From Pseudoxanthomonas sp. NC8 (GTDB taxonomy: Bacteria; Pseudomonadota; Gammaproteobacteria; Xanthomonadales; Xanthomonadaceae), in contig CP060419.1 in NCBI GenBank assembly GCA_025232375.1, forward strand, positions 1,115,001 through 1,179,000: a stretch of DNA of 64,000 nt. The letters run 5' to 3'. The notes below the pieces were generated by a model, which had not been told where the DNA came from, did no database searches, and was given only the letters and a program-made list of their open reading frames with translations. Shown here one piece after another: positions 4,563-61,277 of this stretch (within the stretch, counting starts at the first letter, position 1; the number at the start of each line of letters is the position of its first letter). The position numbers and the translations under genes are program-made.

Positions 4563-5269
4563 ATGAAGTTGCGTCCGATCGCTGTCGCCGTTGCGGCCCT
4601 GGCGCAGCCGGCAGTGCATTCGCCCAGGACACCACGTCCGAGAAGGGCAAGCTGAGCTATTACTTCGGCTACGACTACGGCAACAACAACCTGGCCGAAC
4701 TGCAGGGCCGCGGCGAGCAGATCGACACCGCGTCCGTGATCAAGGGCCTGCAGGATGCCCTGGCCAAGAAGCAGCCGGCGCTCACCGCCGACCAGCTCAA
4801 GCCGGCGCTGGAAGCGTTCCAGAAGCGCGAGCAAGCGCGCGCCCAGCAGGCCAAGGCGGCGTACGACAAGGCCGCGGGCGAGAACAAGACCAAGTCCGAC
4901 CAGTTCCTTGGCCGCGAACAAGGCCAAGGCCGGCGTGCAGACCCTGCCGGGCGGCGTGCAGTACCGCGTGCTGGAGACCGGCACCGGCGCCAAGCCGACC
5001 TATAGGCCAGCACCGTCCAGCTGGAAGTTTCCGGTCCGTACCCGTTCGGCCAGCGTCCGGAGCAGGCGCGTCCGGCCCAGCAGATCCCGGGCATCAAGCT
5101 GAGCGAAGTCGAGATGGCCGCCATGCGCGAAGTGCTGGCGCAGATGCCGGCCGGCTCGAAGTGGGAAGTGGCGCTGCCGCCGGAAAAGGCCTATGGCGCC
5201 GATCCGCGCACCGGCTTCCCGCCGAACGTTGCCGTGGTGTTCGAGATCAAGCTGGTCTCGGTCAAGTAA
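4563..5269 (+). CDS. FKBP-type peptidyl-prolyl cis-trans isomerase, periplasmic (FkpA/Mip type), frameshifted
   Basis: Accelerates proline isomerisation during folding of exported proteins. The pieces read as a signal peptide (MKLRPIAVAVAALA... FAQ), an N-terminal helical dimerisation segment (KLSYYFGYDYGNNNLAE, LKPALEAFQKREQARAQQ), then an FKBP domain with GVQTLPGGVQYRVLETGTG, ending PPNVAVVFEIKLVSVK. Mip/FkpA proteins share this order. Three indels break the frame: a lost C at 4602 (CCTGG), CCTTGG for CCTGG at 4916, and CTATAGG at 5000. A little of the FKBP core near 5006 may be missing, because the usual DGTVFDSS region is not visible. Confidence 0.85.
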
Positions 5270-5295
5270 TACACGCCCGTACAGCGTTATCCCTT

Positions 5296-5320
5296 CTGCG
5301 CCGGCTCCATGCCGGCGCAG
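5296..5320 (+). terminator. Rho-independent terminator after the FKBP gene
   Basis: Perfect 10-bp arms CTGCGCCGGC and GCCGGCGCAG enclose the loop TCCAT, followed by TCGTTT. It lies 27 bases after the FKBP stop codon. Confidence 0.65.
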
Positions 5321-5375
5321 TCGTTTCTGCTGGCGCGAACCGCGCTACGCTTCGCTCCAACATGTGCGCCTTCCC

Positions 5376-5597
5376 GTGCTGTCGATCCCGTTCCCGCCGA
5401 CATCTCCGCCTGCAAGCGGCGCCGCCGTGCCATCCAGCCCCTGCGTGCGGGTGTGCCGCATCGAGGCCGATGGCCTGTGCCGTGGCTGCCTGCGGACCGG
5501 CGAGGAGATCGCGCTCTGGTCGCGGCTGGACGAGCACGAGCGCCAGCAGCTGATGAAGACCGTGCTGGCCGATCGTGTGCGCGCGAAGTTCGGTTTT
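5376..5597 (+). CDS. DUF1289 small cysteine-rich domain, in frame with the following Nudix gene
   Basis: DUF1289 domains are short four-cysteine modules of unknown role. Here SSPCVRVCRIEADGLCRGC gives the CxxxC...CxxC pattern, followed by RTGEEIALWSRLDEHERQQL, a textbook DUF1289. The likely start is the GTG at 5376. No stop codon separates it from the Nudix segment: the frame runs through RAKFGF into MDRLVERERIS at 5598. DUF1289 proteins normally stop after about 60-70 residues, so either this is a true fusion or an indel near 5595 (TTTTATGG, one of the error signatures here) has removed the stop. Confidence 0.6.
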
Positions 5598-6222
5598 ATG
5601 GACCGGCTGGTCGAGCGCGAACGCATCAGCGGCGTGCTGTACCCGTTGCGGCAACCGCCGCCGGGCGACGGCTGGAACCGCTCCGAACTGGACGACCTGC
5701 TGTCGCCGGCAACCCCCGTCGCCGAAGCCGCGGTGCTGGTCGGCCTGGTGCCGCGCGCCGGCATCGGCACGCAGGTGCTGTTGACCCGCCGCACCGACGG
5801 ACTCCGCCACCATGGTGGGTAAGGTCAGTTTTCCCGGCGGCCGGGTCGAGCGCGAGGATGCCGGCGCGCTCGGCGCCGCGTTGCGCGAGAGCCACGAGGA
5901 AATCGCGCTGGAAGGGCGTAAGGTGGCGCCGCTGGGCTACCTCGATCCGTTCCTCACGGTGAGCGGGTTCCGCGTCACTCCGGTGGTGGCGGCGATCGAT
6001 CCGGACTACGTGCCGCGCCCGCATCCGGGCGAGGTGGCCGAAGTGTTCGAGGTGCCGCTCGACTTCCTGATGGCGGCCTCGCACCTGCACCATAAGGTGG
6101 AGATTGATTTCCGTGGTCGCCGCCGCAGCGTGCTCGAATACGACTGGCCCGGCCAGCGCATCTGGGGCGCAACCGCGGCGATCCTGTACAACCTGAGGCG
6201 ACGGCTGGAGGAGGGCGCATGA
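5598..6222 (+). CDS. Nudix hydrolase, CoA pyrophosphatase type (NudL/YeaB-like), one frameshift
   Basis: Hydrolyses coenzyme A or a related nucleotide diphosphate derivative to the phosphopantetheine moiety and 3',5'-ADP. After MDRLVERERISGVLYPLRQ comes VLLTRRTDGLRHHGG, then in another frame VSFPGGRVERED and ALRESHEEIAL, which together form the Nudix box with its metal-binding RE..EE. YVPRPHPGEVAEVFEVPLDFL and FRGRRRSVLEYDWPGQRIWG are typical of the CoA-pyrophosphatase branch. The break is GGGTAAGG (5817-5824) where GGCCAGG would restore HHGGQVSFPGG. Its TGA overlaps the next gene's ATG (ATGA). Confidence 0.85.
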
Positions 6223-7089
6223 GCGATCACGAGGGACCGTGGACAACGCTGGTGACGGTGCGGGCGCTGGCGGCGGCGCTGGGAGGTGACGGCGTGCGGG
6301 TGCTCGATGCCCGCGCGGTGCTGTCGGATCCGTCCGCCGGCGCAACCGCGTTCGCCGCTTCGCACGTGCCCGGCGCGGTGCACGCGGACCTGGATCGCGA
6401 CCTGTCCGACCATTCGTTGGCCGGGCAGGGCCGGCACCCGCTGCCCGGTGCCAGCGCCTTCGCCCGCCGCGTCGGCCAGTGGGGCATCGGCCCACGGCAC
6501 CAGGTCGTGGTCTACGACGCCGGCGACGGCAGCATGGCCGCCGCGCGCGCGTGGTGGCTGCTGAAGCTTCTCGGCCATGAACGCGTGGCCGTTCTCGATG
6601 GCGGGCTGGCGGCATGGCGTGCCGCTGGCCTTCCCGAAACCGATGGGGCCGATGCGCCGCCGGCGCTGGCGCCGTATCCCTCGTCCGGTTTCGATCGAGC
6701 CCGCATCGCCGGTGCCGACGAGGTGTCGGCGCGCCTGGGGCGAGGCGCCGGGCTGGCTGTTCGATGCGCGCGGTGGCGAACGCTTCCGCGGCGAGGTCGA
6801 GCCCATCGATCCGGTCGCCGGGCACGTCCCAGGCGCGCTCAACCGGCCCTTCGCGGCGAACCTGCGCGACGGGCGCTTCCGTTCCGCGGAGGAGTTGCGA
6901 GGGGAGCTTGTACCGCTGCTGCACGGCCGCCAGCCGGCCGAGGCGGTGCTGATGTGCGGTTCGGGCGTGACCGCCTGCCATCTGCTGCTGGCGATGGAAC
7001 ATGCCGGCCTGGCCGGGGCCAAGGTCTATGCCGGTTCGTGGAGCGGCTGGATTGCCGATCCGGCGCGACCGGTCGCTACCGGCATGTAG
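6219..7089 (+). CDS. sseA: Sulfurtransferase, 3-mercaptopyruvate/thiosulfate type, two rhodanese domains
   Basis: Transfers sulfane sulfur from 3-mercaptopyruvate or thiosulfate to a thiol acceptor or cyanide. The N-terminal inactive rhodanese domain includes RVLDARAVLSDPSAG and ASHVPGAVHADLDRDLSD; the C-terminal catalytic domain has LFDARGGERFRGEVEPID, HVPGALNRPF and the active-site loop CGSGVTACH, where CGSG(V/I)TA marks mercaptopyruvate sulfurtransferases. About 290 residues, as expected. A single +1 shift at about 6742 (an extra G after CCTGG) separates the domains. Start overlaps the Nudix stop, so the genes are probably co-transcribed. Confidence 0.88.
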
Positions 7090-7127
7090 CGAGACCCCAC
7101 CGGGCCCGCGGTTCCGATCCGTGCGCA

Positions 7128-7156
7128 TGCCGGAGCCGATTGACCGGGCTCCGGCA
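7128..7156 (+). terminator. Strong inverted repeat between convergent sulfurtransferase and SDR genes
   Basis: Perfect 10-bp arms TGCCGGAGCC and GGCTCCGGCA with a 9-base loop lie between two convergent genes, where a terminator serving either strand would be expected. No clear T-run follows on either side. The rest of 7090-7253 shows nothing recognisable. Confidence 0.4.
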
Positions 7157-7253
7157 CCACGCAGTACGCGCAACCGGTCGCGCCGCGACCCTGCAGTCCG
7201 CCACGCGGGCGCACGCCTGGCGCCGCACCGGGGCTGCCGTGGACGGTGGCGGC

Positions 7254-8030
7254 CTACAGCATCATTCCGCCCGATGCCTCGATCCGCTGCGCATTGATCC
7301 AGCCGGTGCCCGGCGCCAGCAGCGCGGCGACCACCGCGCCGATGTCGTCGGGCAGACCAACCCGGCCCGGGGCGGTCTGCGAGGCGATGAGGGCGTTGAC
7401 CTGGGCGTTGTCACGCACCGTGCCGCCGCCGAAGTCGGTCTCGATCGCGCCCGGTGCGAGCGTATTGACGCTGATTCCGCGCTCGCCCAGTTCCTTGGTA
7501 AGGTAGCGGGTGAGCACTTCGATCCCGCCCTTCATCGTGGCGTAGGCGGCGTAGCCGGGAAGCGCGAACCGCGCCAGTCCGCTGGACACGTTGAGGATGC
7601 GGCCGCCGTCTGCGATCAGGGGCAGCAGCGCCTGGGTGAGGAAGAACGGTCCTTTGAGGTGGATCTTCACCAGTTCGTCGAACTGTGCCTCGCTCGTCTC
7701 GGCGAAGGCGGCATGGATGCCGGTGCCGGCGTTGTTGACCAGGTGGTCGAAGCGCTCGCGGCCCCAGCCGGACAGCACCTGGCGGACCTGCGTGGCGAAG
7801 GCCGGGAAGCTGGCGCTGTCGGCCACGTCCAGGGCCAGCACGGCGGCGCGGCGGCCGAGGGCGCGGATCTGCGCGGCGGCCGCCTCCGCCGCTGCGGCCT
7901 CGCTGCGGTAGGTCAGGATCAGGTCGCTCCTGGCTGGCCAGATGCAGGGCTGCATTGCGGCCGAGTCCGCGGCTTCCGCCGGTGATGGGGCGATGGGGGC
8001 GTGGTGGGGGGACGGTGAACGCGTGCTCAT
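7254..8030 (-). CDS. Short-chain dehydrogenase/reductase (SDR), N-terminal frame damaged
   Basis: Classical SDR oxidoreductase using NAD(P)H; substrate unknown. In-frame motifs are NNAGTG (the NNAG motif), VSSGLARFALPGYAAYATMK containing the catalytic Ser and YxxxK, and VNTLAPGAIETDF. The C-terminus ends EASGGMML. The Rossmann glycine motif TGGSRGLGRNAALHLA is present but in another frame at about 7930-7990, so at least two indels lie in the first 40 codons, one at a CCAGG near 7935. About 258 residues, normal for the family. It is divergent from a LysR regulator, which probably controls it. Confidence 0.85.
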   Translation of the reverse strand: MSTRSPSPHHAPIAPSPAEAADSAAMQPCIWPARSDLILTYRSEAAAAEAAAAQIRALGRRAAVLALDVADSASFPAFATQVRQVLSGWGRERFDHLVNNAGTGIHAAFAETSEAQFDELVKIHLKGPFFLTQALLPLIADGGRILNVSSGLARFALPGYAAYATMKGGIEVLTRYLTKELGERGISVNTLAPGAIETDFGGGTVRDNAQVNALIASQTAPGRVGLPDDIGAVVAALLAPGTGWINAQRIEASGGMML

Positions 8031-8085
8031 GTCGGTGGCTCCGGTGGTGGGTGCAAGGCAGGGTATTGAGTGGCCACCAGCGGAT

Positions 8086-8109
8086 AAACTGACAAGATGT
8101 GATCAGTTT
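8086..8109. promoter_or_regulatory. Candidate LysR-type operator between SDR and LysR genes
   Basis: Perfect 7-bp inverted repeat AAACTGA / TCAGTTT with a 10-base spacer, in the 102-bp divergent intergenic region, 24 bases before the LysR start. LysR-type proteins bind dyads of this kind between their own gene and a divergent target. It is AT-rich against the background. Function inferred from position. Confidence 0.55.
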
Positions 8110-8132
8110 GTTCGCAGTATGGAGACAATCCC

Positions 8133-9049
8133 GTGGACCAGCTCGACCAGTACCGGATCTTCGTGCGCGTGGCCGAGCTGGGTGGCTTCACCCGTGCAGC
8201 GGCTGCGCTGGGCCTGCCCAAGGCCAGCGTGTCGACCGCGGTGCGGCGGCTGGAGGCGGCTCTGGGCGCGCAGCTGCTGCACAGGACCACGCGGCGGGTG
8301 CAGCTGACCCGCGAAGGCCTGCTGTTATGGAGCGTTGCCGCGACCTGCTGGGCGAGGCCGAGGAGCTGCAGGCGCTGTTCCGCGAGGAGCCGCGCCTGCT
8401 GCGCGGGCGCGTGCGGGTCGGCATGTCCGGCAGCATGGCCGCGCGGCTGGTGCTGCCGCAGCTCGGGGCATTCCTGCAGGCCCATCCGGGACTGGAGATC
8501 GAACTGGGTGCCGGCGAGCGACGGGTCGATGTCGTCCGGGAGGGCTACGACTGCGTGGTGCGGACCGGCGGGGTGGTCGACGACAGCCTTGTCGCGCGGC
8601 CGTTGGGACTGGCGGCGGTGGCCAACTGCGCCAGCCCGGACTACCTGCGCCGCCATGGCGTGCCACGCACCCCCTGGCTGACCTGGCGTCGCACCGGCTG
8701 GTGCACTACGCCGGCAGCTTCGGCGAGCCCGCCATGGGCTGGGAGTACCCGCTGCCCGACGGCAGCCATGCGACCTGGCGATGACCGGATCGGTCACGGT
8801 CGATGGTGGCGATGCCTATGTTGGCGCGGCGCTGGCCGGCCTGGGCCTGATCCAGGTGCCGCGCCCTGGGCGTGGGTCCGTTGCTGGAGGTGGGATGCCT
8901 TGGTGGAGGTACTGACCGACCTGCCGGCCGAACCGATGCCGGTCACGCTGCTGTATCCGCGGCAGCGGCATCTGCCCCGGCGCGTGCGCGAAGTGATGGA
9001 CTGGCTGGCGCGGGTGCTGTCGCCGCACCTGCAGCCGTTGCCGCGCTGA
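8133..9049 (+). CDS. LysR-family transcriptional regulator (DsdA/AaeR-type), several frameshifts
   Basis: Begins MDQLDQYRIFVRVAELGGFT RAAAALGLPK with the winged-helix motif ASVSTAVRRLEAALG and HRTTRRVQLT, diagnostic of LysR regulators. The effector domain follows: RCRDLLGEAEELQALF, RVRVGMSGSMAARLVLPQL, YDCVVRTGGVVDDSLVARPL, and finally MPVTLLYPRQRHLPRRVREV. Frames change at about 8328 (TTATGG), 8672, 8775-8785, 8862 and 8900. Length about 305 is normal. It probably regulates the divergent SDR gene through the dyad at 8086-8109. Confidence 0.85.
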
Positions 9050-9065
9050 ACGCCGCGCGTCGCGC

Positions 9066-9847
9066 TCAGCCCTTGCCGAGCCGGGACAGCAGGGCGCGCA
9101 GGCCGGCCTGCGTGTCCGGCTCGTACCAGCCGTCGACGAAGCGGTCCAGGTGCAGGTGGTCCGGATCCAGCGCCTGCACCAGGTCGGCGCGGGCCAGCGC
9201 GCGGGTCTGCAGCATCGGTGCGCGCGGCAGGCGCAGCAGGTCCTGCAGCCAGAGGGTCGCGCGCGGCACCACGTCGTCGACCGCCGCCAGTTCGTCGATA
9301 AGGCCGATCCGCAGCGCCTCTTCGGCCGGCACCATGTTCCCGGCGACCAGCAGGCGTTCGGCGCGGTGCCGGCCCACGACGCGTCGCATCAGCTGCTGTG
9401 CACCATCGGGCACGGTAAGGCCGACCTGCGTTTCGTTCATGCCGATCGCGTAGGGCTTGTGCGGGTCGGGCGAGGTCGCCATTACCCGGTAGTCGCAGCA
9501 CAGCGACAGCACGCAGCCGCCGGCGGGCGAATGCCCGGTAATGGCGGCCACCACCGGCACGCGCAGCCCGGCAAGCGTGCGGGCCGCGCCGAAGAACGAA
9601 CCCCAGGCCGCGCGCAGTGCATGCCGGTCATCGCCCAGCGACAGCAGGTACGGCACATCGAGCCCGGCGGAGAAGATGCCAGGCGCGCCCGACAGCACCA
9701 CCGCGTCGACATCGTCGGCCACGGCGGCGTCGAGGGCGCCGATCAATGCGCGGCACAGCGCGCCGTCGAGCGCATTAACCGGCGGCCGCGCTAAAGGCGC
9801 AGTTCGCGGATGCGACCGTGTTCGGAGATCTGCAGGTGCGTGCTCAT
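9066..9847 (-). CDS. Enoyl-CoA hydratase/isomerase family protein (second crotonase), one frameshift
   Basis: Crotonase-fold acyl-CoA enzyme. Starts MSTHLQISEHGRIREL at 9847, shifts frame at about 9790 (CCTTTAG in place of CCTGG; in-frame TAG created), then continues IGALDAAVADDVDAVVLSG, FSAGLDVPYLLSLGDD (oxyanion hole) and ITGHSPAGGCVLSLCCDYRV. NETQVGLTVPDGAQQLMRRV matches the second catalytic region. About 260 residues. The LDVPYLL and CCDYRVMA features resemble delta3,delta2-enoyl-CoA isomerases more than hydratases, but I cannot decide. It is convergent with the LysR gene (16-bp gap). Confidence 0.85.
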
Positions 9848-9891
9848 CGGCGGTCAGGGAAGCGCATGGCGGGTGCCGGTATCATAGGCGC

Positions 9892-10346
9892 ATGCCTATC
9901 CGATCGATCCTTCTCGCCGCGCTGCTGCTCGCGCCGTGCCTGCAGCGGCTGCGGCGACGCCCGCACCGGCCGGGTCCACCTGCATTGCGGTGCGCGATGG
10001 CTGGATCCGCATGCCGCCTGCGCCGCGGCCGATGCTTGCCGGATTCGGTCGCATCGCCAATGGCTGCGCCACCGAGCAGGTCGTGGTCGCGGCGCGCAGC
10101 CCGGGCTTCGGCGACGTGTCGCTGCACGAAACACGGATGATCGATGGTGTCAGCCGCATGCGCGGGGTCGAACGCCTGCCGGTCGCGCCGGCCGGGGAGG
10201 CCGTACTCCAGCCCGGCGGCCTCCACCTCATGCTGATGCAGCCCACGGCCGCGGTCGAGGAAGGCGGGCAGGTGGTGCTGGTGCTGGTGCTGGCCGATGG
10301 CCGGGAAGTGCCGGCGACGCTGACCGTGCGCACGAGCGCACCGTAA
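9892..10346 (+). CDS. Periplasmic copper chaperone PCu(A)C family protein
   Basis: PCu(A)C proteins carry Cu(I) in the periplasm, often for cytochrome oxidase CuA assembly or copper homeostasis. The signal peptide [17 protein letters not shown] reads in one frame; the mature part ([39 protein letters not shown]) reads in another after a lost G in CCTGG at 9942. The copper-site region [15 protein letters not shown] and [15 protein letters not shown] supplies the His/Met ligands of the family. About 150 residues, as usual. Promoter region is shared with the divergent crotonase gene. Confidence 0.8.
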
Positions 10347-10362
10347 GGCGGGCGTGGGGCGC

Positions 10363-10382
10363 GGCCGGGGCCATCCCCGGCC
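10363..10382. terminator. Bidirectional terminator-like hairpin between convergent genes
   Basis: Perfect 8-bp arms GGCCGGGG and CCCCGGCC with loop CCAT, lying between the PCu(A)C stop and the thioesterase stop. No T-tract. Confidence 0.45.
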
Positions 10383-10387
10383 CGGTC

Positions 10388-10806: not shown

Positions 10807-10810
<4 letters not shown>
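10388..10810 (-). CDS. Acyl-CoA thioesterase, hotdog fold (4HBT/YbgC family)
   Basis: Hydrolyses acyl-CoA or 4-hydroxybenzoyl-CoA-like thioesters. The intact 140-residue protein has the hotdog signature [20 protein letters not shown], with the Asp and His-Val-Asn-Asn active-site cluster, then [31 protein letters not shown] forms the central beta-sheet. Its ATG overlaps the uvrA TGA (ATGA), so it is the downstream gene of a uvrA operon. Substrate unknown. Confidence 0.9.
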
Positions 10811-13731
<2,921 letters not shown>

Positions 13732-13809
13732 CGGGCAGGGGGTCCGTTGGTGGGCTGGGGGAGGCCGGAAGACGACCAATCGATCAGCCTACCGGCCTCC
13801 CGATTTGGG

Positions 13810-18117: not shown

Positions 18118-19155
18118 ATGAGCAGGCTGTTCCGTGACGTCGATGGCGGGTCCCTGTGCCCGCGCGGCAGCGTGGTCTGCATCGGCGCCTTCGACGGCCT
18201 CCACCTGGGCCACCGGGCGCTGGTGCGCCATGCGGTGGCGCGTGCGCAGGCACTGGGCGTGCCCGCGGTGGCGCTGAGTTTCGAGCCTTTGCCGCGCGAG
18301 TTCTTTGCCCGGACCAATCCGCCGCCGCGCCTGACCCTGCCGCGCGACCGGATCGGCGGGCTGTCCGTACTGGGCATCGACCATCTCGGCCTGCTGCGCT
18401 TCAACGCCGCGCTGGCGGCGATGCCGGCCGAGGACTTCGTCCGCCGCGTGCTGGCCGGACGCCCGGGGTGCGCTCGAGGTCTGGATCGGTCCGGAGTTCC
18501 GCTTCGGCCATCGTCGTGGCGGCGATCTCGGCCTGCTGCAGGCGATGGGTGCGGAGCTGGGCTTTGCCGCCGGCGAGATCGCACCGGTGCACGTCCACGA
18601 CGAGCGCGTGTCCAGCACCCGCATCCGCGAGGCGCTGGTCGCCGGCGACTTCGGCCATGCGGCGACGCTGCTCGGTCGCCCGTACGCCATTGGCGGCCGG
18701 GTGGTGCGCGGCCGCCAGCTCGGGCGCACGCTCGGGTTCCCGACCGCCAATCTGCGCTTCCCGAAGGCGCCAGCATTGTCCGGCATCTATGCGACCTGGG
18801 TGCACGGCGTCGCGCCGCGGCCGTGGCCTTCGGTGTCGAGCTTCGGTACCCGGCCCACGGTCGAGGGCGTGGAGCCGCTGCTGGAGGCGCACCTGTTCGA
18901 CTTCGCCGGCGACCTGTACGGACGCCACCTGCAGGTCGAATTCGTCGCCAAGCTGCGCGATGAAGAGAAGTTCCCGGATCTGCCGGCACTGACCGCGCAG
19001 ATGCACCGCGATGCGGCCGAGGCCCGCTGCATCCAGGGGCAAGTCCCGCGCAACAGGCGACAAGTCCTGGTGCGGGCATCGACAGTGCGAGTCCTTTGCA
19101 GAATCCCGCACATTCCCGTGCGGACTTTCCAACACCAGCCGCCGCGCGACGGTAG
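18118..19155 (+). CDS. ribF: RibF, bifunctional riboflavin kinase/FAD synthetase
   Basis: Phosphorylates riboflavin to FMN and adenylates FMN to FAD. N-terminal FAD synthetase domain: [20 protein letters not shown] nucleotidyltransferase motif. C-terminal kinase: [44 protein letters not shown] and [17 protein letters not shown]. One +1 shift at about 18470 (CCCGGGG for CCTGGG). After EAARC at about 19030 the usual stop is not in this frame; shifting at the CCAGG at 19035 gives an Ala/Ser/Pro-rich tail ending in TAG at 19155, five bases before ileS. That end is my best guess. Confidence 0.9.
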
Positions 19156-19160
19156 ACGCC

Positions 19161-22006
19161 GTGACCCAGACTACAAAGCCACTCTCCACCTGCCGGCCAC
19201 GGAATTCCCGATGCGCGGCGACCTGCCCAAGCGCGAGCCCGACACCCCTGGCCCGCTGGGAAGCCGACGGCCTGTACGCGCAGCTGCGCGCCCATGCCCA
19301 TGGCCGGCCGCTGTTCGTGTTGCACGACGGCCCCCTACGCCAACGGCGCGATCCACCTGGGCCATGCGGTCAACAAGATCCTGAAGGACATCATCGTCAA
19401 GTCCAGCAGATCTTGGCCGGCTTCGATGCGCCGTACATCCCGGGCTGGGACTGCCATGGCCTGCCGATCGAGATCGCGATCGAGAAGAAGTTCGGCAAGG
19501 TCGGGGTCAAGCTCGATGCCGCCGAGTTCCGGCAGAAGTGCCGTGAATACGCCGAGTCGCAGATCGAGGTCCAGCGCAAGGACTTCAAGCGCCTCGGCGT
19601 GATCGGCGACTGGGACAACCCGTACAAGACGCTGAACTTCCGCTTCGAGGCCGACGAGATCCGCGCGCTGGCCAAGATCTACGACAACGGCCACATCAGT
19701 CGTGGCGTCAAGCCGGTGCACTGGTGCTTCGACTGCGGCTCGGCATTGGCCGAGGCCGAGATCGAATACTGGGACAAGGTTTCCCCGGCGGTCGACGTGG
19801 CCTACGCCGCGCGCGATGCGCAGGCGGTGGGCAAGGCGTTCGGGGTCACGGTGCCGGCCGATGTCGAGGTCGCGATTCCGATCTGGACCACCACGCCGTG
19901 GACGCTGCCTGCGTCGCTGGCGATCTCGCTCGGACCGGAGCTGGAATACGGGCTGGTCGAAGGCCCGGCGCACGGCGGCAAGCGCCGCTGGCTGGTGCTG
20001 GCCGATGCGCTGGCCGAGCGCGCGCTGCAGCGCTACGGCGTGGCCGGCGTCACCGTGCATGGCCGGGTGAAGGGCGCGGCGCTGGAGAACCTGCTGTTCG
20101 CCCATCCGTTCTATGACGAGCGCGACATCCCGGCGATCCTCGGCGACCACGTGTCGGCCGACGACGGCACCGGCGCGGTACACACCGCGCCCGGCCACGG
20201 CCAGGACGACTACGTGGTCGGCAAGGCCTACGGCCTGATCGACAGGTACACCGCCGCCCAGCTCAACCCGGTCGACGGTCGCGGCGTGTACCTGCCGTCG
20301 ACCCCGCCCGCGCACGGCGTGGAACTGGCCGGCCAGCACATCTGGAAGGCCAACGACGCGATCGTCGAGGTGCTGCGCGCCAGCGGTGCGTTGCTGGCCG
20401 CGACGAAACTCGAGCACAGCTATCCGCACTGCTGGCGGCACAAGACGCCGATCGCGTTCCGCGCCACGCCGCAGTGGTTCATCTCCATGACCCAGGCCAA
20501 CCTGCGCGCCGACGCGCTGGCCGCCATCGATACGGTGAAGTGGTATCCGGAGTGGGGCAAGGCCCGCATCGCCGGCATGGTCGAGGGCCGTCCGGACTGG
20601 ACGATCTCGCGCCAGCGCACCAGGGCGTGCCGATCGCGCTGTTCGTGCACCGTGAAACCGGCGAGCCGCATCCGCGCAGCAGCGAACTGATGCGCCAGGT
20701 CGCCGACAGGGTGGAGCAGGGCGGCGTCGACGTCTGGTACACGCTGGATGCGACCGAGCTGCTGGGCGCCGAGGCGGCCGACTACGACAGGATCACCGAC
20801 ATCCTCGATGTCTGGTTCGACTCGGGCGTGACCCACGAGGGCGTGCTGCTGGAGCGTGGACTGGGCAAGCCGGCCGACCTGTACCTGGAAGGCTCCGACC
20901 AGCACCGCGGCTGGTTCCAGTCCTCGCTGCTGACCGGCGTGGCCATCGACAAGGCCGCCCCGTACCGGCAGTGCCTGACCCACGGTTTCACCGTGGACGA
21001 GCACGGCCGCAAGATGTCCAAGTCCCTCGGCAACGGCATCGAGCCGCAGGACATCATGAAGACCCTGGGCGCGGACATCCTGCGCCTGTGGATCGCCTCG
21101 GCCGACTACAGCAACGAGATGTCGCTGTCGCAGGAGATCCTCAAGCGCAATGCCGATGCCTACCGGCGCCTGCGCAACACCGCGCGCTTCCTGCTGGCCA
21201 ACCTGCACGGGTTCGATCCGGCCCGCGACCTGCGCCCGCTGGAGGACATGGTCGCGCTGGACCGGTGGATCGTGCACCGCGCCTTCGAGGTCCAGGAAAG
21301 GATCAAGGAGGCGTACGACCGCTACGACTTCGCCGCCATCGTCCAGGCACTGCTGAACTTCTGCAGCGTCGACCTGGGCTCGCTGTACCTGGACGTGACC
21401 AAGGACCGGCTGTACACGATGGGCGAGGATTCGCGCGGCCGGCGCAGCGCGCAGAGCGCGATGTACCGAATCGCCGAGGCGTTCGTGCGCTGGATCGCGC
21501 CGGTGCTGAGCTTCACCGCCGACGAACTGTGGGGCTACCTGCCCGCGTCCACGGAAAGCGGCGAGCGCGTGGGCAACGTGCTGTTCGCCACCTGGTATGA
21601 AGGCCCAGCGCCGCTGCCGGCCGGTGCCGACCTGGGTGCGGACGATTTCGAACGCCTGCTGGCCCTGCGCGAGCAGGTCGCCAAGGTGCTCGAGCCGATG
21701 CGTGCCAACGGCCAGATCGGCGCGGCGCTGGAGGCCGAGATCACGGTGACCGCCAGTGCCGATACCGCCGCGCACCTGCAGCCGCTGGCCGAGGAGTTGC
21801 GTTTCCTGTTCATCAGCGGCGACGTGGCCGTGGTACCGGCGCAGACCGACGACATCTTCGTGAGCGCGCAGCCGACGGCCAAGGCCAAATGCGTGCGCTG
21901 CTGGCACCACCGCGCCGATGTCGGCGTGGATCCGGCGCATCCGGAGCTGTGCGGCCGTTGCGTCTCCAATGTCGACGGCTCCGGCGAGGATCGCAGGTGG
22001 TTCTGA
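19161..22006 (+). CDS. ileS: Isoleucyl-tRNA synthetase
   Basis: Charges tRNA-Ile and edits valine. Starts with GTG 19161, then [25 protein letters not shown] (HIGH motif), [20 protein letters not shown], the editing domain around [14 protein letters not shown] and [19 protein letters not shown], and a C-terminal zinc knuckle [12 protein letters not shown]...CGRC. About 948 residues. Breaks cluster in the first 80 codons: lost G in CCAGG at 19169, extra C at CCTGG 19250, lost bases near 19331 and 19405. One more is at about 20630, where [17 protein letters not shown] is expected. Sits in ribF-ileS-lspA-ispH. Confidence 0.97.
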
Positions 22007-22008: not shown

Positions 22009-22518
22009 ATGACGACTGCGCGCCCTGGGCCCAATGCGATGCCGTGGCTGCTGCTGTCGGCGCTGATCATCGGCCTCGACCAGTGGAGCAAGGCCTGGGT
22101 GCTGTCCAGCCTGCCGGAGTACACCGCCATCCCGGTGGTCGACGGCTTCTGGAACTGGTACCGCACCTACAACACCGGCGCGGCATTCAGCTTCCTTGGC
22201 CAATGCCGGTGGCTGGCAGGCGCTGTTCTTCACCGTGCTGGCCTTCGCCATCTGCGGCCTGCTGGGCTGGTGGCTGTGGCGCACGCCGCGTGGCGACTGG
22301 CGGCAGGCGCTGCCGTACTCGCTGGTGATCGGCGGCGCGCCCTGGGCAACGTGATCGACCGGCTGGTCCATGGCCACGTCGTCGATTTCATCCAGTGGTA
22401 CTGGCGCGGGCACTATTGGCCGTCGTTCAACCTGGCCGACTCGGCGATTGTTGCAGGCGCCATCGGCATCGCCCTGTTCGGCCTGTTCGATGGCCGCAAA
22501 GGCAAGGCTGGTTCATGA
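22009..22518 (+). CDS. lspA: Lipoprotein signal peptidase (signal peptidase II)
   Basis: Membrane aspartyl protease that cleaves prolipoprotein signal peptides. [20 protein letters not shown] starts the first membrane helix; [16 protein letters not shown] is the conserved NTGAAFS box; [16 protein letters not shown] and [15 protein letters not shown] carry the two catalytic aspartates. Four membrane helices. Breaks: CCTTGG at 22194 (CCTGG expected) and a two-base insertion at the CCTGG near 22338. ATG starts two bases after the ileS stop, so coupled translation is likely. Confidence 0.95.
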
Positions 22519-37020: not shown

Positions 37021-40293
<3,273 letters not shown>

Positions 40294-42533: not shown

Positions 42534-45138
<2,605 letters not shown>

Positions 45139-47878: not shown

Positions 47879-50427
47879 ATGGCCTGCGCAACCCTGAAAC
47901 ACACCGGACTGGCGATCGCTGTGGTCGCCGCGATCGCGGGCATGTCGGCGGTACCCGCCGCGCGCGCGCAACAGCCGACCGCCACGCCGACCACCCGGGA
48001 CGAAGAGCCGGTCACGCTGTCGACCATGGTCGTGACTGCACAGAAGCGCGAACAGGCACTGCAGGAAGTACCGATCACGGTGAACGTGCTCAGCGAACAG
48101 CTGCTGCAGGACACCGGCGTACGCGACATCAAGGACATGCAGGTGCTGGTGCCCGGCCTGACCGTGACCAGCACGCAGAGTGCGGCCCAGACCGTGGCCC
48201 GCATCCGCGGCATCGGCACGGTCGGCGACAATGCCGGCCTATAGGTCGTCGGTCGGCATCGTCATCGATGGCGTGTACCGCCCGCGCAACAGCGTCGGCT
48301 TTACCGACCTGGGCGAGCTGGAACGGATCGAGGTGCTGAAGGGACCGCAGGGCACGGTGTTCGGGAAAAACACATCGGCCGGCGTGATCAACGTGGTCAC
48401 CCGCCGCCCCAGCTACACCCAGAGTGCCGAAGGCGAAGTCACCGTCGGCAACTACGGCGCACTGGGCCTGGCCGGCGCGTACAACGATGCGCTCGGCGAG
48501 CACAGTGCGATGCGCATCTACGCCGCGCTGCGCACCCGCGACGGTGTCGACGACGTGCGCACCGGCGGTGGCCCGCGCACGGAAACCGACGACGGCGACC
48601 AGAACATGCAGACCCTGCGCGGTCAGCTGCTGTGGGAACCGGCCGAATCGGTGCAGGTCAACTTCGCCGCCGACTACACCAGCCGCGAGGAAAACTGCTG
48701 CGTTACCGTCACCACCGTGCGCGGTCCGACCGCGGCGATCCTCAACGCACTCACCCCCGGTGGCGAGGCGGTGATCCCGGTGGCCGATCCGGACCGGCGG
48801 CTGGCCTACAGCAATCGAAGCACCGAGCAGGACATCAAGGACAAGGGCTTCCAGGCGCAGGTGGACTGGACCACGCCCTGGGCCAACGAGGCGGTGCTGA
48901 CCTCGATCACCGCCTGGCGCGACTGGCAGGCGATCAACGGCCTGGACTTCGACTACAGCGCCGCCGACGTGCTCTACCGCGCGCCGGACGAGGACGAGTC
49001 GCTGACCGCGTTCGAGACCTTCAAGGAGTTCCGCCTCACCGGATCGAGCGAGACCATCGACTGGATGGTCGGCCTGTTCTATTCGGACGAGGACCTGGAC
49101 CGCAACGAGACCTACCGCTACGGCCGCGCCTACGAGCCATACCTGTCGACCGCGCTGATCGGCCAGATCAACCCGGCGCTGGCGTTGCGCCCGGATGCAC
49201 CTCTGTTCCTGTCGCAGGCCACCGGCAGGCCGTTCGGCACGCTGTTCCCGGGCCTTAGCCACGCTCGACACCTACAAGCAGAACGCGGAAAGCACGGCGC
49301 TCTTCACCAACAACACCTGGCACGCCACCGACGCGTTCGACGTGACCTGGGCCTGCGCTACACCCGCGAGAAGAAGACGCTGGAATCGGACTACACCAAT
49401 CCCAACGGCAGCCTGGCCTGCGCCTCGTACTTCCTGCCCAACGGCCAGGTGAACCCGGCGGCGTTGCAGCGCATCGGTGCGGCGCTGGTCTCGCGGGGTG
49501 TGCCAGCGGCGGCGGTGCCGACCATCGCCCCGCAGGTCATCGGCTTCACCTGCCTGCCCTGGGCGAACGTGGCCCACAACGGTCGCTCGACCGACCAGGA
49601 ACGCGATGAGAAGGAGTGGTCGGGCACGCTGAAGCTGGCCTACAACTTCAGCCAGGACGTGATGGCCTACGCGTCGTACGCGCGCGGTTACAAGGCCGGT
49701 GGCTTCAACCTGGACCGCGTGCAGTCCTCGAACGGCCTGTCCAGCGGCACGGGGGGCATCATCCCGGTGAACGACACCTCCTTCCCGGGCGAGTTCGTCG
49801 ACAGCTACGAGCTCGGCACCAAGACCACGTGGGCCGACGGCAACCTGCTGCTCAACGCGGCGCTGTTCTACCAGGAGTACACGGACTTCCAGCTCAACAG
49901 CTTTATGGGCACCAGCTTCGTGGTCCGTTCGATCCCGGAGGTGACCTCCAAGGGCGTGGATGCCGAACTGCTGTGGAACACCGGCATCGATGGCCTGTCG
50001 ATGCAGGCCGGCGTGGTCTATGCCGACACGCAGTACGGCGATGACCTCCTGCCCGACGCCGGTATGGTGCTGCTGCCCGGCAGCCAGATGAGCTTCGCGC
50101 CGAAGTGGTCGACCAATGCGAACCTGACCTACGAGTGGGACATCGGCGGCAGCCTTGGTCCGCTTCAACATCGGCGCCAAGTACATGTCCGAGTACAACA
50201 CCGGCTCGATGGACCCACAGAAGCTGCAGGACGCCTACACCCTGCTCAATGCGCGCATCGGCATCGGCGACCGGAACCAGCGCTGGTCGCTCGAGCTGTG
50301 GGGCCAGAACCTCGGCGACGAGACCTACAAGCAGGTCGGTATCGACGCGCCGATCCAGACCGGCTCGTGGAACGCCTTCCTCGGCGCGCCGCGTCTGTAC
50401 GGCATGACCCTGCGCGTGCGCTACTGA
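47879..50427 (+). CDS. TonB-dependent outer-membrane receptor
   Basis: Energised outer-membrane uptake channel; ligand unknown. Signal peptide (MACATLKHTGLAIAVVAAIA ... ARAQQ), TonB box-like TLSTMVVTAQKREQ, plug domain VPITVNVLSEQLLQDTGVRD, RIRGIGTVGDNAG, LERIEVLKGPQGTVFGKNTS, then a 22-strand barrel with MAYASYARGYKAGGFN and C-terminal RLYGMTLRVRY. About 849 residues. Breaks: CCTATAG at 48238 (stop in plug), about 49255, about 49350, CCTTGG at 50154. SD GGGGAGGG before ATG. Stands alone between CDF and CinA genes, so no substrate context. Confidence 0.93.
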
Positions 50428-50450
50428 CCGCATCCACGGATCGAGGGACG

Positions 50451-50474
50451 AGGGCCGCTTCGGCGGCCCTTGTT
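50451..50474 (+). terminator. Rho-independent terminator after the TonB receptor
   Basis: 8-bp arms AGGGCCGC / GCGGCCCT with a TTCG tetraloop, then TGTTGTTT. Confidence 0.8.
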
Positions 50475-50508
50475 GTTTGGGGAATTAGCGTCTGTGGATT
50501 GGCTGGGG

Positions 50509-50606
50509 CGCCGGTTGCGGATGCCCCTGGAGGCGAATGTCCCCGGCGGCGGCCCTTGGCCTCCGCCTCCTCCTTTATTTCGCCTCAGGGGCATCCGCAA
50601 CCGGCG
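50509..50606. repeat. Long inverted repeat (28-bp arms), possible structured RNA
   Basis: Arm 1 (50509-50537) and arm 2 (50579-50606) are inverted copies of 28 bases; the only difference is one extra G in arm 1, inside a CCTGG. Arms begin CGCCGGTTGCGGATGCCCCT. The 41-base loop is rich in G/C and carries TCCTTTATT. Such a stem would be very stable as RNA. It lies in the 418-bp gap 50428-50845. A shorter hairpin (CCTGCG / CGCAGG) follows at 50609-50630. No protein-like frame crosses it. Confidence 0.85.
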
Positions 50607-50845
50607 TTCCTGCGTGGCTATGACCGCAGGAGCCCGTGCTGCATGGACGCGAGGTTGCTGGGAATCGCGTTGCCGTGGCCGGTACCGACGATGTCGGGGA
50701 CAGTCGTGGGCAAGTCCTGAAGGCCGTCGCCGAACTGGTCCGTTGGTCCCGGATACGGGGATCAGGCAGGAGGTCGGCTCGGTGGCGCGGGCAGACAGCC
50801 GCTGGCGTTTGAGCTAAAACGTCGGCATCCCCCGCCGTGCCGACC

Positions 50846-51380: not shown

Positions 51381-53064
51381 ATGTGGGAGACGCTGGGCAC
51401 CGTCCGCGACCTGGGCCGGTTGCAGCAGATCGCCTCGGTGCTGGTCGGCTACGGCTTCGGCGACATGGTCCGCCGCATCGGCCTAGCCGGCGCGCTGGAG
51501 CGCGCCGGTCGCCTGCTCCACTGGCAGGACCCGCAGGCGATGGCGCACATGGCGCCACCGGAGCGGGTGCGCCGCGCGCTGGAAGACCTCGGCCCGACCT
51601 TCGTCAAGCTAGGCTAAGGTGCTGGCCACGCGCGTGGACCTGCTGCCACCGGAGTGGATCGCCGAGCTTGGCAAGCTGCAGAACGCGGTGCCGGCGCTGC
51701 CGTTCGCGCAGGTGCGGGCGCAGCTGGTCGAGGACCTGGGCGAGGAACCCGAAGCGCTATTCGCGCGACTCGACGAGATACCGCTGGCCGCGGCCTCGCT
51801 GGCGCAGACCCACCGCGCCTGGCTCGCCGACGGCACGCCGGTGGTGCTGAAGATCCGCCGCCCCGGCATCCGCGACACGGTCGAGTCCGACCTGCGCCTG
51901 CTGGCGCGGCTGGCCGAGATCGTCGAGGCGCAGGCCCCGGACCTGCACCGCTACCGCCCTCGCGAGGTGGTGCACGAGTTCACCCTGTCGTTGCGGCGCG
52001 AGCTGGACTTCGCCGCCGAATGCCGCAACGCCGAGCGCATCGCGGCCAATTTCGCCGGCCACGAAGAGATCGTGGTGCCGCGCGTGCACTGGCAGTGGAC
52101 CAGCGAGCGGCTCAACGTGCAGGACTTCGTCGCCGGCATTCCCGGTCCGGACCTTGGCCGCCGTCGACGCGGCGGGCCGGACCGCAAGCGCCTGGCCGAG
52201 GTCGGCGCCAGCATCGTGCTGAAGATGGTGCTGGAGGACGGCTTCTTCCACGCCGACCCCCATCCCGGGAACATCTTCTACCTGGCCGGCAACCGTGTCG
52301 CGGTGATCGACTTCGGCATGGTCGGGCGGGTGTCCGAACAGCGTCGTTTCCAGATCGTGCAGATGCTGCACGGCCTGGTCGAACGCGAGGCCGCGGCGGT
52401 CGGCGACGTGCTGCTGGAATGGGGCGAGGGCGGCACCGGGCCAGACGAGTCGCGGCTGCAGGCCGACATCGGCGCCTTCGTCGACCAGTACCGCGGCGTG
52501 CCGCTGAAGGACCTGCGGATGGGCCAGATGCTCATCGACGTCACCACGATCCTGCGCAACCACGGCCTGAGCCTGCCGCCGGACCTGGCGCTGATGGTCA
52601 AGGCGTTCCTGACCCTGGAGGGTTTCGGTCGCCAGCTCGATCCGGACTTCGACATGGCCGGGGCCGCGCGGCCCTATCTGGAGCGGGTGATGCTCGCGCA
52701 CTGGTCGCCGCGCGCGCTGTTGCGCCGGGGCCGCCGTGGGCTTTTCGATGCGATCGAGCTTGCCGGCGACATGCCGCGCGAACTGCGCCGGCTGCTTCGC
52801 GCCGCACGCCGCGGTCGCCTGAACATGCAGATCGAGGTGACCTCGCTGAAGGCGTTCGGCGAGCAGGTCGATCGCGCCGCCAACCGGCTGACCATGGGCG
52901 TGGTCACCGCGGCGCTGGTGATCGGTTCGTCGATCGTGATGAATGCGGCCGGCGGCGGCGTGTCCAGCCGCTGGCTGCTGGCGCTGGGCGTGGCCGGCTT
53001 CGTCGGCGCCGCGCTGATCGGAATGTGGATCCTGCTGTCGATCTGGCGCAGCGGGCGGCGCTGA
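51381..53064 (+). CDS. UbiB/AarF-type atypical kinase (ABC1 family)
   Basis: ABC1 kinase-like ATPase needed for ubiquinone synthesis in the UbiB branch; an AarF paralogue is possible. Family motifs: the KxGQ box LGPTFVKLGQVLATR, VLKIRRPGI (nucleotide loop), RRELDFAAECRNAERIAANF, DGFFHADPHPGNIFYL and VIDFGMVGRV. Two C-terminal membrane helices (VVTAALVIGSSIVMNAAG, WLLALGVAGFVGAALIGMWI) fit UbiB topology. About 561 residues. Breaks: CTAAGG at 51614 (CCAGG), CCTTGG at 52152, and about 52180. GGGGAGGA ribosome site. Confidence 0.88.
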
Positions 53065-53116
53065 GGGCGCTTCCGCCTTGCCTGCGTGCGTAGGGCAAGG
53101 CTCGCCCCGCTCCCTG

Positions 53117-53971: not shown

Positions 53972-53973
53972 CC

Positions 53974-54804: not shown

Positions 54805-55844
<1,040 letters not shown>

Positions 55845-55988
55845 GTACATGGGGTCCTGGCTCTGCCCGGGACCGATCGCTATCCCGTTCCCCGCCGGAA
55901 TGCTGTCAGTGGCGTGACGGTGGGGAACGGGGCCTTGAAGGCCAGGGAGGGCAGGCGCCATGGATGGCGCACATCTTCCAGCGGACCG

Positions 55989-56521
55989 ATGACTGACGAT
56001 TCAGGACCATGACGGCGCAGGCAGTCCGGTCGGACTGCACGGGCCGGCCGGACCGGCGCGCCGCCGCAAGCGCCCGGAACCGACCCCGGTGCAGCGTGCG
56101 CTGGGACTGCTGGTCCGGCGCGAGCACTCGCGCAAGGAACTGAGCCGCAAGCTGGTGGCGCGCGGGGTCGAGGCCGACGAGGCGCGTGCCGCGATCGAGC
56201 GCCTTGGCCGGCGAGGGCTGGCAGGACGACACCCGCTTCGCCGAATCGCTGGTCCGCAGCCGTGCCGCCTCCGGTTACGGGCCGCTCTATGTGCGTGCCG
56301 AGCTGTCGACCCACGGCTTGCCGGGTGAGGCGATTGCGGCCGCCCTGGAGGGCTTCGAAGGCGACTGGACCGCCAATGCCCGCGACCTGGTCCGGCGCCG
56401 GTTCGGTCCGGCAGGGCCCGCCGACCTGGCCCAGCGGCGCAAAGCGGCCGACCTGCTCGCCAGGCGCGGGTTCGATGGCGACAGCATCCGCGCTGCGACC
56501 CGCTGGGACCCGGACGAGTAG
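55989..56521 (+). CDS. recX: RecX, regulator of RecA filaments
   Basis: Inhibits or trims RecA filaments. The recognisable body: [42 protein letters not shown], then [34 protein letters not shown] and [20 protein letters not shown]: three-helix RecX repeats. Errors: CCTTGG at 56202 and a shift near 56007. The start is uncertain; ATG 55989 (MTDDSG) needs the 56007 correction, otherwise only non-ATG starts are available. Downstream of recA, as in most relatives. Confidence 0.9.
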
Positions 56522-56706
56522 GGCGCCGGCCTTTCCCGCCCTGGTCGGGAGGGCCGCCCCCGCCGGATCGCCAGCCATGGCGTGCCCGGGCGGCGCGCAG
56601 GCGTCCGGAGGCGCCCGCTCTGCTACCCTTTGCGGCTCCAGATTCCCGTCCCGCCGGGCCGCCGAGGCGCGTTCCCGGCCCGGACCCGTCCGCCAGCCGA
56701 AGCCAG

Positions 56707-59359
<2,653 letters not shown>

Positions 59360-59530
59360 CCGCGCGGCATCCGCCGGCCCCGCGAACCGGGCGGAACTTG
59401 CCCCCTGCTGGCGGGGGCAGTACGATCCCGTGCTGTTCAAACATTTAGTACGCCGCTGTGTGGACACGCGAGGCCTCCCTTCGGAGGTCCGCGGGCCGGC
59501 GAAGGCATGCCGGCGCCATGGAGATAGACA

Positions 59531-59739
59531 ATGCTGATTCTGACCCGCCGCGTAGGCGAAACCCTGATGATTGGTGATTCGATCACCGTTACCGTGCTTG
59601 GGGTGAAGGGCAACTATAGGTGCGTATCGGCATCACCGCGCCCAAGGACGTGGCGGTGCACCGCGAGGAGATCTACCAGCGGATCCAGCGCGGAGAGAGC
59701 CCCGGGGCCACGGCTGACGAGGGCGATCCGGCGGCCTGA
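59531..59739 (+). CDS. csrA: CsrA/RsmA, post-transcriptional regulator
   Basis: Homodimeric RNA-binding protein that blocks or exposes ribosome sites at GGA motifs; controls carbon storage, motility and virulence traits. [28 protein letters not shown], then (after a shift) [26 protein letters not shown]. One break: CTATAGG at 59614 (CCAGG expected). About 69 residues with a Pro/Ala/Asp tail. GGAG lies 8 bases before ATG. Between alaS and tRNA-Ser as in many gammaproteobacteria. Confidence 0.96.
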
Positions 59740-59820
59740 GCAGAAAAGGGTTTGCCGCGAAACGCCCCAGACGGTATCCTTCCGCGTCTCGCGAGCGCAG
59801 CAGCGCGGTGCGGGTCCAAC

Positions 59821-59913
59821 GGAGTGATGCCCGAGAGGCCGAAGGGGCTCCCCTGCTAAGGGAGTATAGGGTCAAAAGCTCTATCGAGGGTTCGAATCCC
59901 TCTCACTCCGCCA
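59821..59913 (+). tRNA. tRNA-Ser (anticodon GCT)
   Basis: 93 bases with acceptor GGAGTGA/TCACTCC, D arm, anticodon stem CTCCC/GGGAG with loop CTGCTAA (anticodon GCT, reads AGC/AGT), a long class II variable arm, T arm GGTTCGAATCC, discriminator G, encoded CCA. A terminator follows. Confidence 0.96.
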
Positions 59914-59920
59914 GTTGTGA

Positions 59921-59946
59921 AAAAGCCCCCGATCGGGGGCTTTTTT
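59921..59946 (+). terminator. Rho-independent terminator after tRNA-Ser
   Basis: AAAAGCCCCC / GGGGGCTTTT arms, loop GATC, then TT. Self-complementary, so it works on both strands. Confidence 0.85.
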
Positions 59947-60041
59947 GTATCCGCGGTCGACTGGAGCCGGTATGTCCCGGCGCGTCCCAGGGCCGTCGCG
60001 CGCCGGCCGTGGCCCGGTACCTGACCGCCTGCTTCCCGGGC

Positions 60042-61277
60042 TCAACGCCAGGCGCTTCCCATCTGGATGATGATGGTTCTGTCTTCGGGCCCCCAGGCGT
60101 AGTCGGCGCCCACGTACAGGCCGATCCGGCGCGCGATCTGGTAGCGCACGCCAACGCCCTTGCTGACCGCGGTGTAGGCCTCGTCGAAGCTGGCGCGCGT
60201 GCCCCACGCACGCCCCGCGCCGATGAAGCCGATCCCGGCCCAGCGCGGAGTGACGTTCCAGCGCAGTTCGGATTCGAGCACGACGGTGCTGTCGTCCCTG
60301 GTAGCGCGCGGAAGCGATTCCGCGAAGGTCGATGAAGGGCAGCCGGTAGAACGGCACGTCGCCCGCGGCGTGGCGCAGGTCAGCGCGCCCGCCCAGGACC
60401 AGCTTCGATCCGAGCGGCCAATAGCCATAGCCGTAGGTGCGCCAGGTCTGGAAGGTGAGATCACTGCCGATCGCGGGCAGGTAGGCGTTGCCCTGCGCCA
60501 GCACGAAATAGCCGCGTGAAGGCGTAAACGGATTGTCGCGGCTGTCGTATTCAGGCTCAGGCCCACGCCGGAATTGACCTGCTGGAAGTCGCGGTCGTCG
60601 AACAGCGGTCGTTGTGCGCCGTCCTGCAGCCGGGGGTCGAGGTCGGTGTAGACCCACTGCGCCGACACGAACAGCTCCCGGTCGCCGACCCGGCGCGAGA
60701 CCTGCTGGAGGGAGCCCAGTCCGGTGAGGTTGACCGCCACGCGCGTCTCCGGCTGCAGCGGGCCGCTGGTGTAGAAGTCGATGTTGAAGTCCGCATCGGC
60801 CACGCCGCCCTTGTATCGCCAGGTGTCGTCGCGGAAATGGAGGATGCCGCCGCCACCATAGGCCTTGCTGCCGTTCTCGGTTTTCATGACCAGGGCGCCG
60901 AAAAGGTTCGGCGCGATCATCTGCGTGCTGCCGTCCGCCTTGGTCCGCGTCGTGGCACTGCCTTCCGGGCGCTGGAAGAACGCGAAGAAAATGCCGCCGC
61001 CATAGCCCAGCGCAGGATCGGTGATGACGATCGGTACCGGCAGGAATCCGTGATGGTCGAGCAGCCAGTTCGACATGTCGATGCTGCCGTCCTCGCTGTC
61101 GCGGAACATGCTGCCCTTGGCCGCGGTGGCAGTCGCTTCCGGCGGGGTATCGGTCGTCCCTGCCGGCGATGCCATCGCACCCGGGCCGGCGTTGGCTGCC
61201 AGCGGCAGGAACAGCGCCAGGAGCAGCCGCCTCGCCGGCTCGCTCCTGCCGCTCGAATGCGCGTGGTCAGCTTTCAT
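60042..61277 (-). CDS. Omp85/BamA-superfamily outer-membrane barrel without visible POTRA domains
   Basis: 16-stranded surface-antigen-type barrel (bacterial surface antigen D15 domain). N-terminal signal (KADHAHSSGRSEPARRLLLA LFLPLAANA), then DSEDGSIDMSNWLLDHHGFL PVPIVITDPALGYGGG. Strands such as GGGILHFRDDTWRYKGG, FTPSRGYFVLAQGNAYLPAI (the Omp85 lid-loop region), and C-terminal YQIARRIGLYVGADYAWGPE DRTIIIQMGSAWR. About 412 residues, too short for POTRA repeats. Breaks: a lost G in CCTGG at 60548 and another near 60305. Upstream partner is a large secreted protein on the same strand. Confidence 0.8.
   Translation of the reverse strand: MKADHAHSSGRSEPARRLLLALFLPLAANAGPGAMASPAGTTDTPPEATATAAKGSMFRDSEDGSIDMSNWLLDHHGFLPVPIVITDPALGYGGGIFFAFFQRPEGSATTRTKADGSTQMIAPNLFGALVMKTENGSKAYGGGGILHFRDDTWRYKGGVADADFNIDFYTSGPLQPETRVAVNLTGLGSLQQVSRRVGDRELFVSAQWVYTDLDPRLQDGAQRPLFDDRDFQQVNSGVGLSLNTTAATIRLRLHAAISCWRRATPTCPRSAVISPSRPGAPTAMAIGRSDRSWSWAGALTCATPRATCRSTGCPSSTFAESLPRATRDDSTVVLESELRWNVTPRWAGIGFIGAGRAWGTRASFDEAYTAVSKGVGVRYQIARRIGLYVGADYAWGPEDRTIIIQMGSAWR

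Follow-up and report, generated by a model that had tools for sequence, protein, structure and literature searches.

Genes in a 64,000-nt stretch of the Pseudoxanthomonas sp. NC8 genome (the window, G000:C1:1115001-1179000) appear broken almost certainly because sequencing mistakes are piled up at the pentamer CCWGG. The assembly, G000, is a single contig of 3,541,173 bases with an estimated completeness of 57%. As a full explanation we consider it very probable that these are consensus errors of an unpolished long-read (most likely nanopore) assembly at CCWGG sites, and that the methyl mark on these sites comes from the C5 restriction-modification set of the genome itself. Five relatives served for comparison: P. 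daejeonensis (G002) and P. kaohsiungensis (G008) of the same genus, G006 (which we take to be P. suwonensis 11-1), G003 and G012. The altered region of the window and three examples of altered sites are as follows.

4563..60560, no strand: stretch whose CCWGG sites have gathered length changes that break the frame, along with CC-to-TA type substitutions
22194..22199, + strand: length differs from 5 of 5 relatives, with CCWGG in the compared stretch of 4
44668..44673, + strand: TAAGG type with length change, in mutS; CCWGG in 5 of 5 relatives
51614..51619, + strand: TAAGG type with length change; CCWGG in 5 of 5 relatives

Changes at CCWGG in the window and beyond

Frame-breaking length differences between the window and its relatives were collected into clusters independently of any coordinates listed before. 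Support for a cluster required agreement among two or more relatives that also made up two thirds of all those aligned there; 61 clusters were supported in this sense, while 408 had any support. A CCWGG lay within ~6 bases in a supporting relative at 45 of the 61 clusters, compared with 1859 of 15133 random aligned positions (12.3%; binomial p 2.7e-28), the stretch around a cluster being slightly longer than that around a random position, as it included the ambiguous span of the gap. This confirms what a sequence-only reading of the window had proposed, that indels recur at one pentamer.

That reading had listed 34 coordinates. At 33 of them the window could be aligned to at least two relatives (no alignment was obtained for 60548), and a frame-breaking length difference to most relatives was found at 32; position 9942 had none. 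Most aligned relatives had CCWGG in the 24-base stretch compared at 22 of the 33 coordinates; at the other 11, where most relatives are without it, the original site is not shown to have been CCWGG. The string listed at 4916 exists but starts at 4906, so that its compared stretch was 10 bases off. Some of the strings quoted as errors are natural: CCTTGG occurs 42 times in the window and at 4.6-7.3 per 10 kb in the relatives.

To compare CCWGG with other pentamers we used multiple alignments, as a scan of pairwise alignments suffered from uncertain gap positions (of 86 CCWGG sites, 28 were substituted and 8 had changed length, which put the pentamer fourth by indel fraction). As a control, each relative took the place of NC8 in the site test. 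At window sites on which three or more other genomes agreed without exception (84 segments of 400 bases), 11 of 83 CCWGG sites had changed length; the same test in the five relatives gave no length change at 72 to 79 CCWGG sites each.

The test was also applied to a region of 264 kb, where a site was used if two or more relatives were present and all agreed (826 segments of 200 bases). Among 594 testable CCWGG sites in NC8, 289 were intact, 231 substituted and 74 length-changed. Frameshifts made up 69 of these 74 length changes (69/594), as against a single frameshift at 752 conserved sites in the five relatives. Of the pentamers represented by 40 sites or more, CCWGG came first by indel fraction (0.125; the next one 0.077) and second by any change; the enrichment of indels over other pentamers, suggested earlier as a check, is therefore present. 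Errors at CCWGG were far above those at CCSGG. Substitutions at CCWGG were about twice as frequent in NC8 as in the relatives (231/594 versus 137/752), and many of them are ordinary divergence.

Besides indels, plain substitutions such as CCAGG read as TAAGG occur, a kind of change that the sequence-only reading did not mention. With the 594 sites written in the CCAGG orientation, TAAGG was the commonest altered reading (36 cases), followed by CCAGC (35), CGAGG (24), GCAGG (18) and CCACG (18). The latter four also lead in the relatives and are at least in part ordinary divergence. TAAGG-type readings were found at 52 of the 594 NC8 sites and at none of the 752 in relatives. The TAAGG reading itself depended on the preceding base, being commonest after G (26 of 199 sites after G, 0 of 139 after T), as would be expected of a signal-based reader.

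The same picture was obtained without alignment from 464 kb of the NC8 genome (the window, 200 kb adjoining it and 200 kb from ten places in the genome). CCWGG occurred at 45.2 per 10 kb in NC8 and at 67.4-87.1 in the five relatives (0.60 of the relatives' mean), while CCSGG was unchanged (60.6 versus 53.9-63.2; ratio 1.01). Among 32 W- or S-centred palindrome classes, none had a lower ratio than CCWGG; the next-lowest class, TAWTA (0.61), is very rare and inside the range of the relatives. TAAGG/CCTTA was enriched tenfold overall (375 observed, 37 expected). Each of 20 further 20-kb stretches from NC8 held 7-28 copies of TAAGG, and each of 20 such stretches taken from G012 and G006 held 0-5. 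The CCWGG error pattern thus continues on both sides of the window and in all ten distant places sampled.

Two side observations concern other sequence contexts. In the 464-kb sample GGSCC (0.85) and GGWCC (0.89) were mildly rarer than in all five relatives. At 19332 and 57300 of the window two supported two-base losses share a GC-rich context (GGCCC then CC), which may be a second context of consensus error, independent of CCWGG.

Genes broken in the window

The sequence-only reading had named uvrA, mutS, ileS, recA, alaS and csrA among the genes hit. NCBIfam models confirmed the names of the first five, each of which needs two or three frames when compared with its intact P. daejeonensis homologue. 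For csrA, the place 59614 falls within the gene corresponding to csrA of the relatives, with a frame-breaking length difference to all five.

10810..13731, - strand: uvrA in two frames compared with a 979-amino acid (aa) open reading frame (ORF) of P. daejeonensis; NCBIfam UvrA above cut-off on the ORF at 11158-13779, the profile being matched only to position 746 of 943
18156..22003, + strand: ileS region in two frames (ORFs 19011-20687 and 20474-22003) compared with a 1299-aa ORF of P. daejeonensis
37069..39281, - strand: catalase/peroxidase HPI gene in three pieces and three frames; NCBIfam TIGR00198 on three ORFs
42537..45138, - strand: mutS in three frames; NCBIfam MutS on two ORFs
54805..55841, + strand: recA in three frames; TIGR02012 positions 1-136, 137-184 and 185-321 on three ORFs
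56262..59534, + strand: alaS in three frames; NCBIfam TIGR00344 on three ORFs
59614..59620, + strand: altered CCWGG site in the csrA gene (named on the P. kaohsiungensis homologue); length differs from 5 of 5 relatives, 4 of which carry CCWGG

Intact copies of the split genes are present in the relatives, and lexA in the window is in one piece. The best NCBIfam match of ileS (19011-22003) was NF040702, a family with an added N-acetyltransferase domain. An 846-aa ORF at 48180-50720 was tried as AlaS and rejected; it is a TonB-dependent receptor.

We counted broken genes among ORFs of at least 150 aa that were chosen by conservation and covered by the window; a gene requiring more than one frame was called broken. 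With ORFs of P. daejeonensis, 21 of 30 were broken in the window versus 6 of 153 in four relatives (2/51 in G012, 0/39 in G006, 2/33 in G008 and 2/30 in G003). ORFs of G012 gave 18 of 29 versus 12 of 238 (6/119, 4/51, 1/33 and 1/35), and those of P. kaohsiungensis 14 of 18 versus 9 of 109 (4/28, 1/24, 4/31 and 0/26). An earlier choice of ORFs by length only (18/22 in the window versus 8/41, 6/28, 4/29 and 3/22) was rejected because at uvrA and the catalase gene it picked ORFs on the antisense strand; choosing by conservation brought down the figures of the window and of the controls alike.

At the ~75 CCWGG per 10 kb of the relatives, the genome would have ~26,000 such sites; with ~40% missing and ~12% frame-broken, we arrive at an estimate of ~3,000 frameshifts. 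Such a number would explain the completeness of 57%.

A restriction-modification set with a C5 methyltransferase

A restriction-modification set is present outside the window, at about G000:C1:2,517,370-2,520,330, in the order vsr, methyltransferase, endonuclease.

~2517369-2517744: Vsr pieces in two frames; PF03852 36 bits, cut-off 27
2517855-2519093: C5 methyltransferase, the sole PF00145 locus in the genome, with three PF00145 matches within 1.3 kb
2519658-2520332: MvaI/BcnI-family endonuclease domain; PF15515 E 1.5e-62, 212 bits, cut-off 25

The Vsr model TIGR00632 scored 82.7 on one piece of the split gene, below its cut-off of 97.85. The methyltransferase is directly upstream of the endonuclease, with ~0.6 kb between its last match and that of the endonuclease. 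R.MvaI was the only solved structure matching the endonuclease at E <= 0.001 (E 1.8e-5). R.MvaI cuts CCWGG. A review calls MvaI a neoschizomer of EcoRII and states that BcnI, of the same family, cuts CCSGG (PMC4081073).

A Dcm-like C5 methyltransferase had been predicted from the errors. One C5 locus was indeed found, accompanied by Vsr and an MvaI/BcnI-family endonuclease, but the enzyme falls outside the Dcm clade and is part of a restriction-modification set. Against NF007772, the model of the Dcm subfamily, a 133-aa N-terminal piece scored 34.8 bits (cut-off 710), its length limiting the score; the intact homologue in G006 has 27% identity to E. coli Dcm over 270 of 472 aa. The likeness to E. 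coli Dcm with Vsr consists in a C5 methyltransferase beside a vsr gene and in the CCWGG specificity to which the error map points; the differences are this low identity and the restriction endonuclease present here.

In G006 the set has the same order, vsr, methyltransferase, endonuclease, with all three in open frames. P. daejeonensis also carries an MvaI/BcnI endonuclease, a methyltransferase and vsr. Length changes at CCWGG numbered 1 of 170 sites in G006 and 0 of 185 in P. daejeonensis; as both bear such systems yet show no excess of broken CCWGG, the damage goes with the NC8 assembly and not with having the system. The contig name of the P. daejeonensis assembly, with NODE_ and a coverage tag, appears typical of short-read assemblies. 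Its endonuclease is a different member of the family and stands beside a Dcm homologue (49.7% identity to E. coli Dcm) and Vsr (50%) at G002:C31:348001-358000, so that in this genus MvaI/BcnI-family endonucleases are accompanied by two kinds of methyltransferase.

When homologues of the G006 methyltransferase were sought on plasmids, the two that ranked highest (58.2% and 56.5% identity, of 4550 matching records) both had an MvaI/BcnI endonuclease directly downstream. Their location on plasmids, of Phaeobacter gallaeciensis and Alisedimentitalea scapharcae (Rhodobacterales), points to a mobile system. The NC8 set resembles them in having a PF15515 endonuclease with a C5 methyltransferase directly upstream; it differs, as does the G006 set, in the upstream vsr, which does not appear in the gene tables, themselves incomplete, for the two plasmid regions.

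Origin of the errors and what they mean

A long-read assembly, most likely nanopore, that went without short-read correction would retain frameshifts in its consensus, and a methyl group on CCWGG cytosines unfamiliar from the training of the basecaller would direct errors to CCWGG. The mark would most likely be 5-methylcytosine, set by the C5 methyltransferase of the vsr/methyltransferase/MvaI-BcnI endonuclease set and not by Dcm. The sequence-only reading had likewise proposed nanopore consensus error over 5-methylcytosine; errors that follow CCWGG and not CCSGG, together with the C5 locus, support this proposal. The sequence itself shows the concentration of errors at CCWGG, their spread through the sampled genome and the gene set, whereas the platform, the methylation and the specificity of the enzyme are inferred.

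Several observations weigh against this explanation. The case for errors at CCWGG is made from the assembled sequence. Away from CCWGG, length changes in NC8 (218 of 59943 pentamers) are ~five times as frequent as in the relatives (56 of 79414, summed over five), so other errors exist in this assembly. CCSGG itself had 6 frameshifts at 225 sites in NC8 versus 1 length change at 298 sites in the five relatives summed, a low rate though not nil, and for 16 of the 61 supported clusters no supporting relative has a CCWGG close by. Homology to Dcm is too distant to give the specificity of the methyltransferase. Both vsr and the methyltransferase gene are split in the assembly and their intactness is assumed; in the comparison of this locus with G006 only 4 of 24 length differences were near CCWGG or a miscalled form of it (71% identity, with poor gap placement).

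Could the changes be real? The presence of a C5 methyltransferase and a vsr gene, and the broken look of mutS and vsr in the assembly, would fit deamination of 5-methylcytosine at CCWGG with failing very-short-patch repair. Deamination would yield CTWGG or CCWAG, yet the corresponding products CTAGG and CCAAG were seen at 9 of 594 sites in NC8 and 4 of 752 in relatives, while the TAAGG type (52 versus 0) and frameshifts (69 versus 1) prevail; deamination produces no indels, and a cell with both ileS and alaS broken would not be viable. This explanation is mostly refuted, and we give it hardly any credence. An unusual genome with genuinely decaying genes or with programmed frameshifts would agree with the estimated completeness, but the genome size of 3.54 Mb is within the 2.3-4.5 Mb of relatives from the same genus, blocks of the window longer than 400 bases align to the five relatives at 73-96% identity, and the breaks concentrate on one pentamer at which they are nearly absent in these relatives; we regard this possibility as practically negligible.

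Selection by the cell's own restriction system could have made CCWGG truly rare, in line with its ratio of 0.60 and the MvaI/BcnI-family endonuclease. Such avoidance is very unlikely: G006, with a homologous gene set, is the richest in CCWGG among the five relatives (87 per 10 kb), and neither the frameshifts nor the TAAGG excess would be accounted for. It is also unlikely, if less remote, that the consensus errors at CCWGG come from a different mark, such as N4-methylcytosine or another modification. The sequence gives the location of errors and not their chemistry, and R.MvaI is the sole solved relative of the endonuclease at the threshold used. M.MvaI is an N4-methylcytosine enzyme. Speaking for 5-methylcytosine, PF01555 (N6/N4 methylases) had no match in the genome, N4 methylase families other than PF01555 being outside this search, and a C5 methyltransferase stands directly upstream of the endonuclease here, in G006 and on the two plasmids.

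Errors of this kind are already known, and the NC8 assembly adds one more instance of this artefact. In Klebsiella pneumoniae, a 2019 study reports, ~70% of the consensus errors of then-current Oxford Nanopore Technologies basecallers were in Dcm motifs, at ~0.4% error (PMC6591954). The focus on CCAGG/CCTGG (~70% there, 45 of 61 clusters here) and a basecaller untrained on the mark are common to both cases; in contrast, K. pneumoniae is of another bacterial order, and the candidate enzyme in NC8 is a non-Dcm one from a restriction-modification set, with the platform of NC8 presumed. The Modpolish paper describes Listeria assemblies with damage centred on pentamers specific to a lineage; whole-genome amplification markedly improved these genomes, which links their errors to modification (PMC10687267). 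Low-quality assemblies, errors on lineage-specific pentamers and an indicated resident modification system are shared with NC8, whereas the motifs given there are GCAGC (GCWGC) and GCTGG in place of CCWGG. A further paper treats methylation-induced basecalling errors and cites a 2024 paper on detecting modifications from strand-specific mismatches (PMC12016153). Literature searches, which included methylomes of Pseudoxanthomonas and frameshifted nanopore genomes of the genus, gave among the papers listed, judged by title and start of abstract, nothing on this strain or on a CCWGG mark in Pseudoxanthomonas; this is weak evidence, as most subscription papers were outside the search.

The NC8 assembly stands as a species genome in a one-genome-per-species collection. 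In the window, 21 of the 30 conserved genes examined appear to be broken. Claims of gene loss, pseudogenes, evolution rate or CCWGG depletion made from it would be false. Other unpolished long-read genomes could be picked out cheaply, and without alignment, by the same signature of fewer CCWGG, more TAAGG, unchanged CCSGG and a single contig of low completeness, which also indicates the site that the resident methyltransferase recognizes. With somewhat more confidence than doubt, we propose that a non-Dcm clade of C5 methyltransferases, paired with MvaI/BcnI-family endonucleases (and with Vsr in Pseudoxanthomonas; also found on Rhodobacterales plasmids), methylates CCWGG, a specificity that would be readable from the miscalls of a public assembly without signal data.

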